A stretch of 34,119 bases of DNA. It comes from Candidatus Bathyarchaeota archaeon (GTDB lineage Archaea > Thermoproteota > Bathyarchaeia > Bathyarchaeales > Bathycorpusculaceae). Positions 5,311 to 13,595 of the stretch are shown in pieces. The notes below the pieces were generated by a model. The model was not told the origin of the DNA, did no database searches, and saw only the letters and a list, made by a program, of their open reading frames with translations. Within the stretch, counting starts at the first letter, position 1. Every line of letters starts with the position of its first letter. The translations under genes were made by a program, and so were the position numbers. The stretch covers positions 1-34,119 of the forward strand of contig CALMWK010000115.1 in assembly GCA_937873375.1 (NCBI GenBank), written 5' to 3'.

Positions 5311-5856
5311 TTAACTGTTATTTCTCTGCGCCAGTGTTTCCAAAATTTTTCCTGCAAAATCGCCTAACCCACGCTTAACAATAAACAAAATGACCACTTC
5401 CAGCACAAGCGTGCCCGCCAAGAAAACCGCCAAAACACGCGCCAAATCACTCAACAACAAAGCACCCTGAACATTCACATAACCGCCCCCTTCAACAAGC
5501 CAACTCCAACTGCTCAGGTTCTGGGTCGCTGCGAAAGAACCCAAATCCATCGACATCCACGCACACAAAACCGCCAAAACTACCGCGAAGACGCAACCCG
5601 CCACAGTCAACTTAACGTAATCCGAAGACAAGGCTGAAACGCTGGTTATCTCTGTTCCCGACCCGCTTGAAGAAAGGCGAAAGCGGATTGTTTTTTTGGC
5701 GGTTTTCGGCGAAATTCCCCACAGAGAACCCTGCTTAACAGTTACGCTCCTAGGCGGGTCTTCAAAAATTATCTTGCAGTCCTTTTGGGTAAGCAACGTC
5801 TTCAGTTGTGTGTAGGCATCACGGATTTCTGCGTCCACAACAACTGTCGCCGCCAA
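5311..5856 (-). CDS. Uncharacterised membrane-anchored protein
   Basis: 181 residues. An N-terminal soluble alpha/beta part (about 1-83, with SLWGISPKTAKKTIRF and GSGTEITSVS) is followed by hydrophobic segments at about 84-106 and 134-163 and a short amphipathic tail. The TTG start at 5856 is favoured because GAGGTG lies five bases upstream. It is the last of three minus-strand genes (7084 down to 5311), 26 bases after the coiled-coil gene, so probably co-transcribed. No family recognised; a membrane partner for the two upstream proteins is an inference from position. Confidence 0.65.
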   Translation of the reverse strand: MAATVVVDAEIRDAYTQLKTLLTQKDCKIIFEDPPRSVTVKQGSLWGISPKTAKKTIRFRLSSSGSGTEITSVSALSSDYVKLTVAGCVFAVVLAVLCAWMSMDLGSFAATQNLSSWSWLVEGGGYVNVQGALLLSDLARVLAVFLAGTLVLEVVILFIVKRGLGDFAGKILETLAQRNNS

Positions 5857-5882: not shown

Positions 5883-6311
5883 TTAGAAGACGTACGGCAG
5901 TTCTGTACTTTTGGCTTTAATTTCCTTCAGCGACTCGTACTGCGCTTCCATCATAATCTTCAACGCGTCAATGTGCTTTCGTATGTCCTCAATTTCATTA
6001 GCTTTATCGAGAACGCCTGGCTTCGCCAACTGCTCATCAATCTTGTCCACTGAAACTTCCAGAACCTTAACTTTGAACGCGAAAATCTGCAGCATATACA
6101 GCACACTAAGCTGCGATGACAACCTGTCAAGGCGGTCGTATGCCAGCATTCTGCGCATGTAAGCTTTAAGCTTCTGCTCCTCCGTGACATCTTTCGCTTG
6201 AAGCAGTTGCCCATACTCCGCTGTTTGCTTTGAAGCGGTCTCTTTGCTGTCTTCAAAGACTTTCTGAGTTCGCTTAGTAGTTTTCTCCAGCAGTTCTAAG
6301 ACTTCATCCAA
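5883..6311 (-). CDS. Uncharacterised helical, coiled-coil protein
   Basis: 142 residues, almost entirely predicted helix with many Lys, Glu and Gln and no cysteine. Heptad-like stretches span about 2-45 and 75-135, with a short break at KPGVLD. No hydrophobic membrane segment is present. AAGGT lies a few bases before the ATG at 6311. It sits between the zinc-finger gene (89 bases upstream) and the membrane protein gene (26 bases downstream) on one strand. A structural or adaptor role is plausible, but the sequence does not show a known family. Confidence 0.65.
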   Translation of the reverse strand: MDEVLELLEKTTKRTQKVFEDSKETASKQTAEYGQLLQAKDVTEEQKLKAYMRRMLAYDRLDRLSSQLSVLYMLQIFAFKVKVLEVSVDKIDEQLAKPGVLDKANEIEDIRKHIDALKIMMEAQYESLKEIKAKSTELPYVF

Positions 6312-6400: not shown

Positions 6401-7084
6401 CTATTGTGGTTTCTTGTCAGACCCAAAAAGCTTCTTCTCATGCTGAGACCTAGGCTTAAACCCTCTACCCTGACGGTAACCCGCATTGCGTTGCCGCTCC
6501 AGATTCAAAATTCGAGCATAAAGCTTCGAAACCTTCGTCTTAGACGGTGCCTTACGTTTTAACGGGCGCACAGGCACAGGCGTAAACGGCTTACTAATCT
6601 CCGTGCTGGCTTTTAGTCCGCGGCGTCCACGCCCGCGCGGTTTCATGTACCCATCTCGCACTTTCTTGAAGTAGACCCAGCCTTCTTTCAGGTTGACTTC
6701 CTGAACTTCCCAACCAGCATCCAACCATCCTTTAGCGTGAGTACTCGACTTTGAATTGCTCCACCAATCCGTGTTACGGTAAGCTTCCATGGGCAGGTTG
6801 GTGCCGATTAGTCCGTCTATTCTCGCAAAAGTCAATTTGACCATGCTGGTGAATGCAGCGCGAAACTTCAAGTGCTTTGAGAGTCCCTCGTATTTTGAGG
6901 TAACTCGCGGAGAAACTACACGACGCGCGCAATTCAAGCATAACATAGCTGTGGGGTCGCCAGTGGCAACATCAGGCACCATACAGTCCCAGCAGTACAA
7001 ACGCTTGCACCTTGCACACTTCCTCAACCGACTCGTTGAAAGAACTCTTTTGCAGATGCCGCATTCGTCTTTGAAGGCAACCAC
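6401..7084 (-). CDS. FYVE-like zinc finger fused to a DUF7662-like domain
   Basis: 227 residues in three parts. Residues 8-52 hold eight cysteines spaced C-x2-C-x11-C-x2-C-x4-C-x2-C-x14-C-x2-C, close to the cross-brace zinc fingers of FYVE type; the RKCARC stretch sits where FYVE has its basic motif, though not RRHHCR. Residues about 62-145 resemble the DUF7662 domain as I know it: an IDGLIG helix, LP.EAYR, WWSN, then GWLDAGWEV and a final aromatic strand. Residues 146-227 are highly basic and probably disordered, suited to nucleic acid or ribosome binding. The start is a GTG at 7084 directly behind an in-frame TAG, so it cannot be longer. It is the first gene of a three-gene minus-strand cluster. 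Confidence 0.75.
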   Translation of the reverse strand: MVAFKDECGICKRVLSTSRLRKCARCKRLYCWDCMVPDVATGDPTAMLCLNCARRVVSPRVTSKYEGLSKHLKFRAAFTSMVKLTFARIDGLIGTNLPMEAYRNTDWWSNSKSSTHAKGWLDAGWEVQEVNLKEGWVYFKKVRDGYMKPRGRGRRGLKASTEISKPFTPVPVRPLKRKAPSKTKVSKLYARILNLERQRNAGYRQGRGFKPRSQHEKKLFGSDKKPQ

Positions 7085-8811: not shown

Positions 8812-10290
8812 TTAACCTTTGACAACTGCAAGTGGCACTAAACGCGCGACCTTCGTGGCAATCCCAACCTTGTCACTCACGTCAGCCACAACATCCACGT
8901 TCTTGTACGCTGGATCAGCTTCCTCAGCCAAAATCATACTGCTTGCCGCCCGAACCACAATGCCCCGCTTCTCCAAACCCGCTTTGATGTCGCCACCCCA
9001 GTACTTGCGCTTCGCCGCCGACCTGCTCATCATGCGTCCTGCGCCGTGTGCTGTCGAACCAAATGACAAATCCATAGCTTTCTCGGTGCCGACCAGAACC
9101 CACGAACTTGTGCCCATGCTGCCTGGAATAAGCACAGGTTGCCCCTTTGAACGGTAATCTTGCGGAACCTCCACGTGTCCTGGTGGAAATGCGCGTGTGG
9201 CGCCTTTGCGGTGAACCCAGACCTTCTTTTTGCCCCCCTCAACGTTGTGCGTTTCGACTTTTGCAATGTTGTGAGCCACATCGTAAACGAGTTTTAGTCC
9301 GAATTTTTCTGGGTCTTGGTTGTAAACTTGCTGAAAACTCTGCCGAACCCAATGCGTAATCGCCTGCCTGTTGCAGAACGCGTAGTTTACTGCGCAAGCC
9401 ATCGCTTGGTAATAGTCCCGTGCTTCGCTGCTGCCTCCAGGTGCGCATGCCAGTTCTCTGTCCGGCAAAGAAATTTTGTACTTCTGCACCGCGTGCTCCA
9501 TTACGCGTAGGTAGTCACTGCAAACTTGGTGACCGTAACCTCTTGAGCCGCAGTGAATCATGACCATAACTTGCCCTTCTGCCTCGATGCCGAAAGTCTT
9601 CGCGGTTTCAGGGTTTAAAATTTTGTCCACCTTCTGAATCTCCAAAAAGTGGTTGCCTGAACCTAAAGTGCCCAGCTGCGTTACGCCTCTGTTCTTGGCG
9701 GTTGGAGAAACCTTGTCTGGGTTAGCGTTCTTCATGCATCCCTGCTCTTCACAGTGTTCTGCGTCTTGTGCCCAGCCCATGCCTTTTTCAATGAGCCAGT
9801 TGACGCCTTCAACAACAACCCTATCCTGGTCACTCTTGGAAATTGTGAAGTCTTTTCTGCGGCTTCCCAGTCCCGATGGTACATTGGTGAAGATTGACTC
9901 TGCTAACTGAGCAAGTTTTGGTCTTACGTCTTTTTCTGTGAGGTTTGTGGTTAAGAGGCGTACTCCGCAGTTTATGTCGTAGCCTACGCCGCCTGGGCTG
10001 ATAACGCCTGCATCGTAGTCGGTTGCGGCTACGCCGCCTATGGGAAAACCGTAACCTTCATGGCCATCCGGCAAAGTGATGGCGTTCTTGTAAATGCCTG
10101 GCAAATGGGCAACGTTGGCGCATTGCTCCATGGTTCGGTCTGTTTTCATTTTTTCTATGAGGGCTTCGTTGGCGAAAATTAAGCCTGGAACCTGCATTCC
10201 TGGTCTGAAGCGTGGAATACGCCATGAGTAATCGTCTATTTTCTCCAGAGGAACCCTTAATGTTGGAGCGCGACCTGCGTCTTCACCCAT
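8812..10290 (-). CDS. rtcB: RNA-splicing ligase RtcB
   Basis: 492 residues, the full length of archaeal RtcB, with no intein. It joins 2',3'-cyclic phosphate and 5'-OH RNA ends (tRNA exon joining, RNA repair) using GTP and Mn2+. Visible motifs are DGHEGYGFP (about 75-83), YDINCG with metal ligands Asp105 and Cys108, GSGNHFLE, HCGSRGYGH, and STAHGAGR with the guanylylated histidine at about 415. AGGTG precedes the ATG at 10290, and a TATA-like element lies at 10322-10330. Its cofactor archease is encoded at 12079-12528, separated by an MBL hydrolase and adenylate kinase. Confidence 0.97.
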   Translation of the reverse strand: MGEDAGRAPTLRVPLEKIDDYSWRIPRFRPGMQVPGLIFANEALIEKMKTDRTMEQCANVAHLPGIYKNAITLPDGHEGYGFPIGGVAATDYDAGVISPGGVGYDINCGVRLLTTNLTEKDVRPKLAQLAESIFTNVPSGLGSRRKDFTISKSDQDRVVVEGVNWLIEKGMGWAQDAEHCEEQGCMKNANPDKVSPTAKNRGVTQLGTLGSGNHFLEIQKVDKILNPETAKTFGIEAEGQVMVMIHCGSRGYGHQVCSDYLRVMEHAVQKYKISLPDRELACAPGGSSEARDYYQAMACAVNYAFCNRQAITHWVRQSFQQVYNQDPEKFGLKLVYDVAHNIAKVETHNVEGGKKKVWVHRKGATRAFPPGHVEVPQDYRSKGQPVLIPGSMGTSSWVLVGTEKAMDLSFGSTAHGAGRMMSRSAAKRKYWGGDIKAGLEKRGIVVRAASSMILAEEADPAYKNVDVVADVSDKVGIATKVARLVPLAVVKG

Positions 10291-10321
10291 AAATTAACAC
10301 CTACAGAGAAAGGGAGAGTTG

Positions 10322-10330
10322 AATATAAAA
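10322..10330 (-). promoter_or_regulatory. TATA-like element upstream of rtcB
   Basis: On the minus strand TTTTATATT about 35 bases before the rtcB ATG would give a short leader holding the AGGTG site. It shows that rtcB has its own promoter although the MBL gene ends only 72 bases upstream. Confidence 0.45.
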
Positions 10331-10362
10331 CAGTTTTGAAACAAATTCCCCTTAGTACAGGG

Positions 10363-11286
10363 TCAAATTTTTGGTTTTCTGGCGAAGTCTACGAAACCTT
10401 GCACGCTGTTCTCAATCAAAGTTTTCCGGTGAACAGGATTTTCTTTAAGCGCAGAAGCAATTTCGCGGACTCTTTTATCTCCACTAAGTATGGCTTCCCT
10501 TATCGTCTCTGTGCTTTCGCCCTTCTTTACGCCTTCTTCAGCTATTTTCAGCCAGAGTTTAATCTGCACCGCATAATCCCGCAACCGCCTAACAGCGTCT
10601 GAGGCGCTCCCAAAATGAGAGTAACACAAAATTTTAGGGTCAAGACTGATGAGTTTATTTAGCGAAATCAACGCGATGTCAGGTCGAAATGGAGGCGGCG
10701 TAGTGGGGAAAACGGTGTTGTACTCGCTGAGGTATGCGCCCGCGGCATCACCTGAAAAAACGGCTTCATTCAGGTACTCGTAGTAACTCAGGTTGTGAGC
10801 GGCATGTCCTGGAGCTTCCACCGTCTTCAGTTTCACGCCGTTGCCTGCATCAAAAGTCATGCCTTCATGCGCAATAATTAGTTTATCTTCTGGCACTGGT
10901 TCAGGTTCGCCGAACATCTCCGCAACATTTCCCAGAACTTCTTTGGTTGCAGCCCAGAGCTTCGCGGGGTCTTTTAGGTGGGGTGCGCCTTTGGGGTGAA
11001 CGATGACTTTGGCGTTTGGCAAACTTTTCAGCAGGGTACCTGTGCCGCCGCAGTGGTCAACGTGTACATGGGTTAAGGCAATATAGACTACGTCTTCTGG
11101 GTTGACGTTTAGTTCTTTGAGTCCTGAAAGTAGGTTGGAGATAGATGAGGTTGGTCCAGTTTCAACTATGATGGTCCTGTTTCCCTTCAGGACGTAGCTT
11201 GCGATGAGGTTTTTGAAGCCGCCAGCTTCTAAGTCTACTATGAACAGGTTTTTCCCGATTTCTTTGGTGTGCATTTTTCGCAACAT
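10363..11286 (-). CDS. Metallo-beta-lactamase-fold hydrolase
   Basis: 307 residues. The zinc signature HVHVDH lies at residues 73-78. APGHAAHNLSYYE carries the next histidine, a GDAAGAYL stretch the bridging aspartate, and CYSHFG a late histidine. The second half (about 215-307) is helical, like the C-terminal region of glyoxalase II-type and related MBL hydrolases. It is probably a cytosolic hydrolase; the substrate is not evident. Starts at 11286 (ATG) and 11274 (ATG, MHTKEIG) are both possible; a GAGGG lies just upstream of the first, which suits the second better. It is divergent from adenylate kinase. Confidence 0.88.
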   Translation of the reverse strand: MLRKMHTKEIGKNLFIVDLEAGGFKNLIASYVLKGNRTIIVETGPTSSISNLLSGLKELNVNPEDVVYIALTHVHVDHCGGTGTLLKSLPNAKVIVHPKGAPHLKDPAKLWAATKEVLGNVAEMFGEPEPVPEDKLIIAHEGMTFDAGNGVKLKTVEAPGHAAHNLSYYEYLNEAVFSGDAAGAYLSEYNTVFPTTPPPFRPDIALISLNKLISLDPKILCYSHFGSASDAVRRLRDYAVQIKLWLKIAEEGVKKGESTETIREAILSGDKRVREIASALKENPVHRKTLIENSVQGFVDFARKPKI

Positions 11287-11428
11287 CCCTCTGAGGGTAA
11301 ATGTAGAAGTCTATGGAGGGGGCATAAACGTTTCTTTTCTATAACTCTTGATTATTGGCGCGTAACCTTTAACTGTTAGGTTTTTTCATTTTGTAATGAT
11401 TTACTGTCTACGCGAGAGGCTGGACTTG

Positions 11429-12082
11429 GTGAATGCAATAATCTTCGGTGCCCCAGGTTCTGGAAAAGGCACTTACAGTGCGTTGCTTAAAGCTAAACTT
11501 GGCGTTGACGTAATCGCGATGGGCGATATTTTCAGGGAATTAATGAAGGAAGATACACCTTTTGGCAGGAACATTAAGAGTTATGTGAAAGCAGGGTTGC
11601 TTGTTCCTGATGAAATAACCTTAGACATTTTGAAGAAGCACATATCCCAAGTGCCGAAAGGTCACGGATTTATTTTGGATGGGTATCCGCGTAATCTTGC
11701 GCAAGCTCAAACACTGGAGAGCATCGCCAAAATTGACGTCTTATTGCAGTTGGTTGTTCCAGACTGGATAATCATCGAGCGATTATCTGGGCGACGAATC
11801 TGTAAAAACTGTGGAGCCGTTTACAACTTGCAATTTTTAAAACCCAAAGTGGAGGGGGTTTGTGACAAGTGCGGTGGTTCGCTTTATCAGCGGCAAGATG
11901 ACAACCCTGAGATTATACAAATGAGGCTTGAACTTTACGATAATGAAACAAGCCCACTTATACGGTACTATACAGGAAGAAAGGTGCCTGCTATCGTGCA
12001 TAAAAGTGACTCGCTTCAGATTCCGCCTGAAACCGTAGTCGACCTTTTTGTGACTGATCTCAAGAAGCTTAATCTGATTTAG
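11429..12082 (+). CDS. adk: Adenylate kinase, zinc-LID type
   Basis: 217 residues. It interconverts ATP + AMP and 2 ADP in the cytosol. The P-loop GAPGSGKGT is at the N-terminus, the AMP-binding region holds GDIFRELM and ILDGYPRN, and the LID carries a zinc site with CKNC and CDKC. This is the bacterial-type enzyme, not the short archaeal AdkA. The GTG at 11429 has a GAGAGG nine bases upstream and starts exactly where the family does. An ATG at 11396 would add 11 residues and sit near the expected transcript start. The gene overlaps the convergent archease gene by four bases at the stop codons. Confidence 0.93.
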   Translation: MNAIIFGAPGSGKGTYSALLKAKLGVDVIAMGDIFRELMKEDTPFGRNIKSYVKAGLLVPDEITLDILKKHISQVPKGHGFILDGYPRNLAQAQTLESIAKIDVLLQLVVPDWIIIERLSGRRICKNCGAVYNLQFLKPKVEGVCDKCGGSLYQRQDDNPEIIQMRLELYDNETSPLIRYYTGRKVPAIVHKSDSLQIPPETVVDLFVTDLKKLNLI

Positions 12083-12528
12083 ATGTCGAGGATAAACATC
12101 AACGTAGCCTTGTCCGCTTCCCTAATTATCTCCATCTGGTGATAAGTAGCTGCTTTAACACCTACTTTCTGCGGGTGTTTTCCAGGATTAAATTTTTCTC
12201 CCCACACAGTAGCTTTGAGTTTGAACCCCTCTTTTGTCTCCTTAAAACTGTGAACCTCAAACTTGGAGAAAAGCATGCCCTCTACCTCGAACTTCACGAG
12301 AAGCGCTTCCAGCCAACTATAAAGCAACGCATACTCGTCTTCCGCTTCCACCTCCACCGCTTCCCTGTGCGCAGGGTTGACCTTTTGTGTGTCCGTCATG
12401 ACTTCGAACATTGCACGTGCCGCGTTGCCTAAGGCTTCCTCCATGGTTGCGCCGTATGCCGCGATGTAGGCGTCTGCGGTGTGTTCTAGAAACTCGAATT
12501 TTCCAGCGAATTTGTTTGGTTTGTCCAA
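12079..12528 (-). CDS. Archease, RtcB cofactor
   Basis: 149 residues. Archease motifs are FEFLEHTADAYIAAYG at the N-terminus, ALLYSWLEALL in the middle and VKAATYHQMEI near the end, with a terminal FILDI that carries the family's C-terminal aspartate. Archease speeds RtcB guanylylation and allows multiple turnover. It lies 24 bases downstream of the M42 aminopeptidase gene on the same strand and overlaps adk at the stop codons. The partner gene rtcB is 1.8 kb away on the same strand but in a separate transcript. Confidence 0.95.
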   Translation of the reverse strand: MDKPNKFAGKFEFLEHTADAYIAAYGATMEEALGNAARAMFEVMTDTQKVNPAHREAVEVEAEDEYALLYSWLEALLVKFEVEGMLFSKFEVHSFKETKEGFKLKATVWGEKFNPGKHPQKVGVKAATYHQMEIIREADKATLMFILDI

Positions 12529-12551
12529 ATCAAGACACCCTTTTTTGGATT

Positions 12552-13595
12552 TTAGAATTTGTTTTGGATATTCTGAACTGCCGCTGCCGCCAGCTTCGCC
12601 GAGTTTTCGGCGTCTTTTAGGTTGATTAAGCCGAATGGGCTGTGGATGTACCTTGTTGGAACAGATATCGTGCCGCTTGGAACACCCTGCCTCGTCAAAG
12701 ATATGCGTGCAGCATCTGTTGTGCCCAGCAAGCCAGTTTCAAGTTGGTATTCAATTTTGTTTTCTGAGGCTGTGTCGATGAGCCACCGCAGAACTTTGGG
12801 GTGCGTAATTAACCCTGAATCCGTCACGGTTAAGGCTGGGCCTTTGCCCATTTTTACGCTGGTGTCAAATTCTCTTACGCCCGGCACATCACCTGCAACT
12901 GTTACGTCTAAGGCTAAGGCTACGTCAGGCTCGATGCCGAACGCTGCGGTTGCTGCGCCTCTCAAGCCAACTTCTTCTTGAACTGTGCCTACGGCGTACA
13001 CGGTGCAGTCGGTTTTCTCCAACTGTTTGAGGGTTTCAATCATGAAGGCGCAGCCTGCACGGTTGTCAAAGGCTTTGCCCATGACTATGCCTTTGCCCAG
13101 TTTCGTGTACTTAGCATCAAAACCTATGGCATCTCCGACTTTGATGCCCATTTTCTTTGCGTCTTCGCGGTTCTCCGCGCCTACGTCAATGAACAAATCG
13201 TCGTAGGTGACGATTTTTTTGCGCTCATCCTCCTTCTGGATGTGCGGCGGCTTGGAACCTATGACACCGGGCAACGTTTCTTTGTCGGTGTAAACGTTAA
13301 CTTTTTGGGCTAGCAGAATTCGGTCGTCTATCCCGCCCATCTTTGCGAATTTGAGAAAGCCCTCTTTGGTTATGATTTTCACCAGCAAACCAACTTCATC
13401 CATGTGTGCAGCAAGCATAACTTTTGGTCTGCCTTTTTTGCCTTTTTTTATGGCGATGACATTTTCCAGCTTGTCCACAACGACCTCGTCTGCGTGGGGT
13501 TTGAGAAGTTTAATCATGAGGTTTCGGACTTCGCCTTCTCTGCCTGCCACTCCACAGGCGTTTGAGAGCTTCTCTAAGTTATCAGCTAACGACAT
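12552..13595 (-). CDS. M42 family aminopeptidase (TET/endoglucanase-like)
   Basis: 347 residues, the usual M42 length. The two-metal site is visible: AAHMDEVG (His and catalytic Asp), FDNRAGC (bridging Asp), QEEVGLRGA (catalytic Glu and ligand Glu), ALDVT (ligand Asp) and RYIHSP (ligand His). An insert of about 120 residues between the first two forms the dimerisation (PDZ-like) domain in this family. Archaeal members form tetrahedral dodecamers (TET) that trim peptides released by the proteasome. It is the first gene of a pair with archease and is divergent from the mtdB-like gene. Confidence 0.95.
   Translation of the reverse strand: MSLADNLEKLSNACGVAGREGEVRNLMIKLLKPHADEVVVDKLENVIAIKKGKKGRPKVMLAAHMDEVGLLVKIITKEGFLKFAKMGGIDDRILLAQKVNVYTDKETLPGVIGSKPPHIQKEDERKKIVTYDDLFIDVGAENREDAKKMGIKVGDAIGFDAKYTKLGKGIVMGKAFDNRAGCAFMIETLKQLEKTDCTVYAVGTVQEEVGLRGAATAAFGIEPDVALALDVTVAGDVPGVREFDTSVKMGKGPALTVTDSGLITHPKVLRWLIDTASENKIEYQLETGLLGTTDAARISLTRQGVPSGTISVPTRYIHSPFGLINLKDAENSAKLAAAAVQNIQNKF

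Follow-up and report, generated by a model that had tools for sequence, protein, structure and literature searches.

The window, by which we mean the whole 34,119-nt stretch of Bathyarchaeia DNA analysed here, contains at positions 6401-7084 a real gene whose product probably binds DNA or RNA and not membrane lipids. At a probability of about 0.5, we read this product as a lineage-specific nucleic-acid-binding adaptor, more likely for (double-stranded) DNA. In such an adaptor the DUF7662 domain, as a winged helix, would contact DNA, and a conserved basic helix and a disordered basic linker would contribute further, non-specific contacts along the backbone; the two-zinc finger of FYVE/RING type would be a docking site for a partner protein and not for a lipid. 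The winged-helix order of elements in DUF7662 and the fusion of this domain to HNH, GIY-YIG-like and McrB-like partners elsewhere point to nucleic-acid targeting, and the high isoelectric point of the family (9.7-11.2), the strongly basic tail and the conserved C-terminal helix were also counted in favour of the adaptor. From sequence and structure models, we infer zinc binding, DNA binding and partner docking for the protein. The features to which we refer are as follows.

6401..7084, minus strand: gene for a 227-aa basic zinc-finger/DUF7662 protein with a GTG start (open reading frame, conserved Bathyarchaeia family, purifying selection)
6914..7072, minus strand: predicted cross-brace finger, residues 5-57 (invariant cysteines; model block pLDDT 88-97; FYVE and Rab-effector fingers at Z 7.4-5.2)
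6662..6895, minus strand: DUF7662 domain with winged-helix order, residues 64-141 (PF24698, 48.1 bits; H-E-H-H-H-H-E-E; RepE, Pi and CtsR at Z 5.0-5.4)
6551..6649, minus strand: predicted disordered basic linker, residues 146-178, net charge +10 (pLDDT 49-64 in blocks 141-170; charge)
6467..6541, minus strand: conserved basic C-terminal helix, residues 182-206 (block pLDDT 93-96 over 181-200)
8812..10290, minus strand: rtcB, RNA ligase (PF01139, 592.9 bits; linked neighbour within the clade only)
12079..12528, minus strand: archease (PF01951, 157 bits; same cluster)

The gene and its product

The gene is present in one copy in its own genome. Its dN/dS of ~0.06 relative to the homologue at locus L003 indicates purifying selection; dS was saturated against the five other close relatives tested, for which pN/pS was 0.18-0.23. 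The isoelectric point of the window protein is 10.35, within the range found over 55 family members. A DUF7662-like domain had been proposed from the DNA alone, and the Pfam search bears this out, since DUF7662 (PF24698) matched residues 77-140 with an E value of 1e-12 and 48.1 bits vs. a curated cut-off of 26. No zinc-finger family in Pfam scored above its cut-off for the window protein, the nearest being Siva, zf-RING_2, C1_4, PHD and FYVE, and NCBIfam, PHROGs and PADLOC gave no match. A structure model built from 55 sequences (mean pLDDT 85.4, pTM 0.52) places the finger at residues 5-57 and the DUF7662 domain at 64-141, followed by the disordered linker and the helix at 182-206.

The long basic tail of the original prediction is likewise present, with a net charge of +10 in the linker and +11 over residues 179-227. 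The tail is more than a basic run, since it contains a conserved motif modelled as a helix: S181, T183, A190, N194 and R197 are identical in 54 of the 55 aligned rows, and R191 in 53. A tail-only search of the PDB returned only two chains, named T32-15-1 and F4132-2, which matched over 24 residues; no single stretch passed alone. Across the loci, a profile of the tail found no second protein, except pieces of two frame-broken copies of the same family. Our literature search found no paper naming DUF7662, and searches by title and start of abstract for FYVE with archaea, treble clef with prokaryotes, and Bathyarchaeia with winged helix or zinc finger found none describing the protein; the available part of PMC9324892 contains none of the four motif strings sought.

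The eight-cysteine finger

The open reading frame matches exactly the predicted spacing C-x2-C-x11-C-x2-C-x4-C-x2-C-x14-C-x2-C, with cysteines at residues 8, 11, 23, 26, 31, 34, 49 and 52. This pattern was found in 66 of 68 Bathyarchaeota loci, the x11 and x4 spacings being constant and the third ranging from 10 to 16; the two exceptions are a frame-broken copy (L102) and a gene cut by a contig end (L120). All eight ligand positions are cysteine in 55/55 aligned sequences. Two unrelated zinc knuckles were rejected on the model, in which the finger forms a single compact domain. The proposed likeness to FYVE fingers also held for the modelled fold: in structural alignment with VIA-align, the melanophilin finger ranked best (Z 7.4, rmsd 2.8, 53 residues aligned), followed by two FYVE domains at Z 6.6, one of them from a RUN/FYVE protein (rmsd 3.0, 54 aligned), and then by further FYVE, Slp4, RIM and CARP2 fingers, although rows no more than 1 Z apart are ties and all values lie below 8, so they may reflect only a common arrangement. 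Foldseek placed the CARP2 FYVE-type finger first (E 0.081), with no PDB match to the finger model at E ≤ 0.001. Sequence-profile matches in the PDB were ties between HOIP RING1 (the best, E 0.0021), a PHD finger (0.0045) and EEA1 FYVE (0.0057). Over the 55 members, Pfam FYVE matched 33 at E ≤ 1 (best 4e-4), zf-RING_2 22 and Prok-RING_2 15.

FYVE domains carry the lipid-motif signatures WxxD, R(R/K)HHCR, HHC and RVC. In the family sequences, each of WxxD, R[RK]HHCR, HHC and RVC occurs in 0/55, and Pfam FYVE (PF01363) scores the window protein at 8.8 bits vs. a gathering cut-off of 27.8. The archaeal finger shares the eight-cysteine spacing and predicted fold of FYVE (PF01363) and FYVE_2 Rab-effector fingers but differs from FYVE in lacking WxxD, RHHCR and RVC and, in the window protein, in falling under the Pfam cut-off. 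Because the lipid motifs are missing in all 55 sequences, we do not term it a FYVE domain; as modelled, it is FYVE-like in fold only. For the same reason membrane targeting is unsupported, and a membrane-lipid role was rejected. Of the suggested "membrane or nucleic acid targeting", the membrane half therefore falls, whereas the nucleic-acid half gains indirect support from the winged-helix arrangement of DUF7662 and from the nucleases to which it is fused in other proteins. "Eukaryote-like" was an overstatement, since RING-like binuclear treble clefs are described from prokaryotes too and Prok-RING_2 matches weakly in 15/55 members; the portion of PMC4506424 available to us argues that these treble clefs form one old fold group that includes prokaryotes, with many predating LECA and at least one present in LUCA.

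Long arrays of CxxC fingers were also observed in two HerA-like ATPases of the same phylum (L135:2469-5576, minus strand; L145:2682-5708, plus strand; frames of 1,009-1,036 aa, with DUF87 in L145), which end in such an array and whose last finger matches the finger profile with E values of 1e-5 to 8e-5.

The DUF7662 domain as a probable winged helix

DUF7662 was matched by Pfam in 55/55 family members, across which Y65, L72, L97, A101, W107, W108, W120 and W125 are invariant. The modelled elements (H66-75, E81-85, H86-93, H99-103 and H105-108, H115-122, E125-131, E136-141) follow the winged-helix order H1-S1-H2-H3-S2-S3, with additional helical turns preceding the final helix, and a separate model of DUF7662 alone gave the same order (mean pLDDT 85.2, pTM 0.71). 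Its best structural matches were mostly DNA-binding winged helices: the replication initiators RepE (Z 5.4, rmsd 3.2, 79 residues aligned) and Pi (5.3) and the repressor CtsR (5.0) came first and CodY and CRP-type regulators ranked lower, all at Z values below 8 that may reflect only a common arrangement. By Foldseek, yeast Stn1 was best at E 0.13, with CtsR equal and nothing at E ≤ 0.001. On the basis of the element order and of the agreement among the structural matches listed, the DUF7662 domain looks, in the model, like a DNA-binding winged helix. Winged helices are also able to bind RNA or protein.

Distribution, loss and decay of the family

A scan of a collection of 84,980 species genomes recovered 68 loci with relatives, every one named Bathyarchaeota, Bathyarchaeia, Bathyarchaeum or Bathycorpusculum in its record title. 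Fifty-four of them, 34-77% identical to the window protein, were aligned with it; the other 14 lacked the expected start codon, were cut by a contig end, were frame-broken or, for L078, closely resembled another locus (L077). Matches occurred in 48 of 60 related genomes, or 33 of 39 among the good ones. Class-wide, 104 of 189 genomes matched, 101 in the window's order and three outside it that matched one part only; phylum-wide, 73 of 397 matched, 56 within the order and 17 partially (five in the DUF7662 part, 12 in the finger part). The family does not extend beyond one order of Bathyarchaeia. An origin from a virus or mobile element was considered and set aside, since viral contigs held no whole-protein relative and there was no PHROG; phage and plasmid matches centre on the DUF7662 part of the protein.

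Within the window's family, the gene is present in 16 genomes of genus g12 and absent from 15, and it is absent from all three of genus g26. The genomes lacking it that were checked in these genera retain rtcB, and no remnant was found downstream of rtcB in five genomes without the gene. Its absence from g12 and g26 genomes is a lineage-specific loss; the gene can be lost. Given such losses, and copies that look frame-broken (L037, L047, L094 and L102), the gene is common but not universal. The copy at L037:7306-8004 looks decayed, with an in-frame stop, one zinc-ligand cysteine replaced by tyrosine and the tail in a separate frame, as does that at L094, where the tail lies in a separate open frame.

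DUF7662 in other proteins

Thirteen DUF7662 proteins from outside the archaeal family were scanned for partner domains. Above the Pfam cut-offs these were HNH_2 (L149, L150), AAA_5 (L129), which we take to be of the McrB kind, and DUF4268 (L151); GIY-YIG matches in L050 and in L148, which is annotated as a GIY-YIG nuclease, fell below cut-off. Seven of the 13 have no recognised second nuclease-like domain. The nuclease fusions do not represent a random sample, since annotation partly guided the choice of the six plasmid records from 20 plasmid matches. In PADLOC, restriction enzymes and candidate systems lie close to L129, HNH restriction models close to L149 and candidate system PDC-S11 close to L151; the placement of L148 near UzuA is weak. 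The HNH, GIY-YIG, McrB-like and DUF4268 partners are domains of DNA-acting enzymes. The other members of PF24698 share the WW-x-N ... A-x-x-W ... G-W core with the archaeal family; unlike it, those scanned lack the finger and tail, and several carry a fused domain of nuclease or McrB type.

Similar architectures have been described for readers of 6mA. According to the accessible part of PMC11037411 (2024), winged helices that read 6mA are fused to PD-(D/E)XK, HNH, GIY-YIG and PLD nucleases as well as to NTPases; the 6mA/GATC motif was seen in ~10% of the new fusions, the modification being unclear for the rest. The HHPV4I winged helix requires K197, R199 and Q200 (PMC10101028, in part). As far as these two sources reach, DpnI and HhiV4I/HHPV4I pair a winged helix with HNH, GIY-YIG or NTPase domains much as DUF7662 does (PMC11037411, PMC10101028); unlike them, the Bathyarchaeia protein has no nuclease domain. 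DpnI was absent from the PDB profile matches, the Pfam matches and the best 50 structural rows listed for DUF7662, and with no sequence link found the likeness is therefore one of architecture only.

Our analysis offers a fold and a testable role for an unnamed Pfam domain and places DUF7662 outside proteins with nuclease-type partners, in a single-gene family found widely across one archaeal order. Should DUF7662 prove to read a DNA modification, the family would represent a nuclease-free archaeal reader.

Alternative explanations and the genomic neighbourhood

A further reading is that the protein, encoded on the chromosome and built from a restriction-type targeting module, reads DNA that is modified or foreign: DUF7662 would recognise a modified base in the manner of the DpnI and HhiV4I winged helices, and the finger, in place of a nuclease, would recruit a partner instead of cutting. 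We consider this doubtful. The methyltransferase families PF01555 and PF02384 occur in 35/40 and 21/40 genomes, respectively, and two genomes that carry the gene (G008, G009) each have a single PF01555 match of at most 36.5 bits in a frame of ~350 aa, possibly an RNA methyltransferase, and no PF02384, which speaks against an endogenous amino-methyl mark, among these two families, being read in all hosts. Lipid binding and E3 activity are both unlikely. A role as a RING-type E3 ligase, or as a RING-like component in a ubiquitin-like system of archaea, would accord with HOIP RING1 as the best PDB profile match and with the zf-RING_2 and Prok-RING_2 matches. RING and PHD fingers, however, have a conserved histidine ligand (C3HC4 and C4HC3), which is found in 0/55 family sequences, every ligand position being cysteine, and an E2 (UQ_con) was detected in 0/37 genomes; we rate this role as very improbable. 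Least probable of all is a FYVE-type tether to membranes that would recognise a phosphorylated inositol lipid: the spacing, the fold and the Pfam FYVE matches would suit it, but the missing lipid motifs and the sub-threshold score of the window protein argue against it, as does the count of 0/37 related genomes with a PI3/PI4 kinase above cut-off. Since the control genomes gave no E2 match either and matched the kinase only below cut-off, both absences are soft.

Next best after a nucleic-acid-binding adaptor, and its main rival, is a role as an RNA-binding helper of RtcB and archease in tRNA splicing or RNA repair, in which the winged helix and basic tail would hold RNA and the finger the ligase; we regard this as a tentative possibility. 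Archease is the activator of RtcB. Upstream of the gene and co-directional with it in the window are genes for an ammonium transporter, a small open reading frame, rtcB, a metallo-beta-lactamase protein, archease and an M42 peptidase, with adenylate kinase in the same neighbourhood on the opposite strand. Of the 44 loci with at least 50% identity and enough flank, 39 have rtcB upstream in the same orientation, at distances of 9-4,259 bp, and archease is present in 28 of 33 loci with at least 6.5 kb upstream. Six loci with less than 2.5 kb upstream and no rtcB seen were set aside from the synteny count, and two loci (L117, L120) had no focal open reading frame of at least 80 aa. Eight of the 39 linked loci have short gaps of 9-127 bp, and in 16 the two genes are directly adjacent, with no open reading frame of at least 80 aa between them; the portion of PMC3973293 consulted describes RtcB-archease operons as reflecting joint function. 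However, such frames intervene in 23 of the 39, the ammonium transporter separates the two genes in the window by a gap of 1,728 bp, and about half of the g12 genomes do without the gene while those checked keep rtcB. Linkage was found in 0/17 loci below 50% identity, the gene and rtcB are on different contigs in five genomes of other families, and the neighbours in deeper branches have no visible common theme. Within one clade the linkage is real, and the deeper branches lack it; it is weak evidence for a shared pathway. With regard to the adaptor that we prefer, the only conserved neighbour being an RNA ligase fits an RNA target as well.

The surroundings of the gene have further features. 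The cluster at 8812-13595 of the window (rtcB, metallo-beta-lactamase, adenylate kinase, archease and M42 peptidase) is kept in many related loci. Downstream, two minus-strand genes at 5311-5856 and 5883-6311 have no Pfam match, and the former recurs adjoining the finger/DUF7662 gene, or one gene away from it, in 16 loci. Finally, a tRNA-Gly (TCC) gene lies at 2033-2110 on the minus strand and is overlapped by a spurious open reading frame on the opposite strand (1924-2175).
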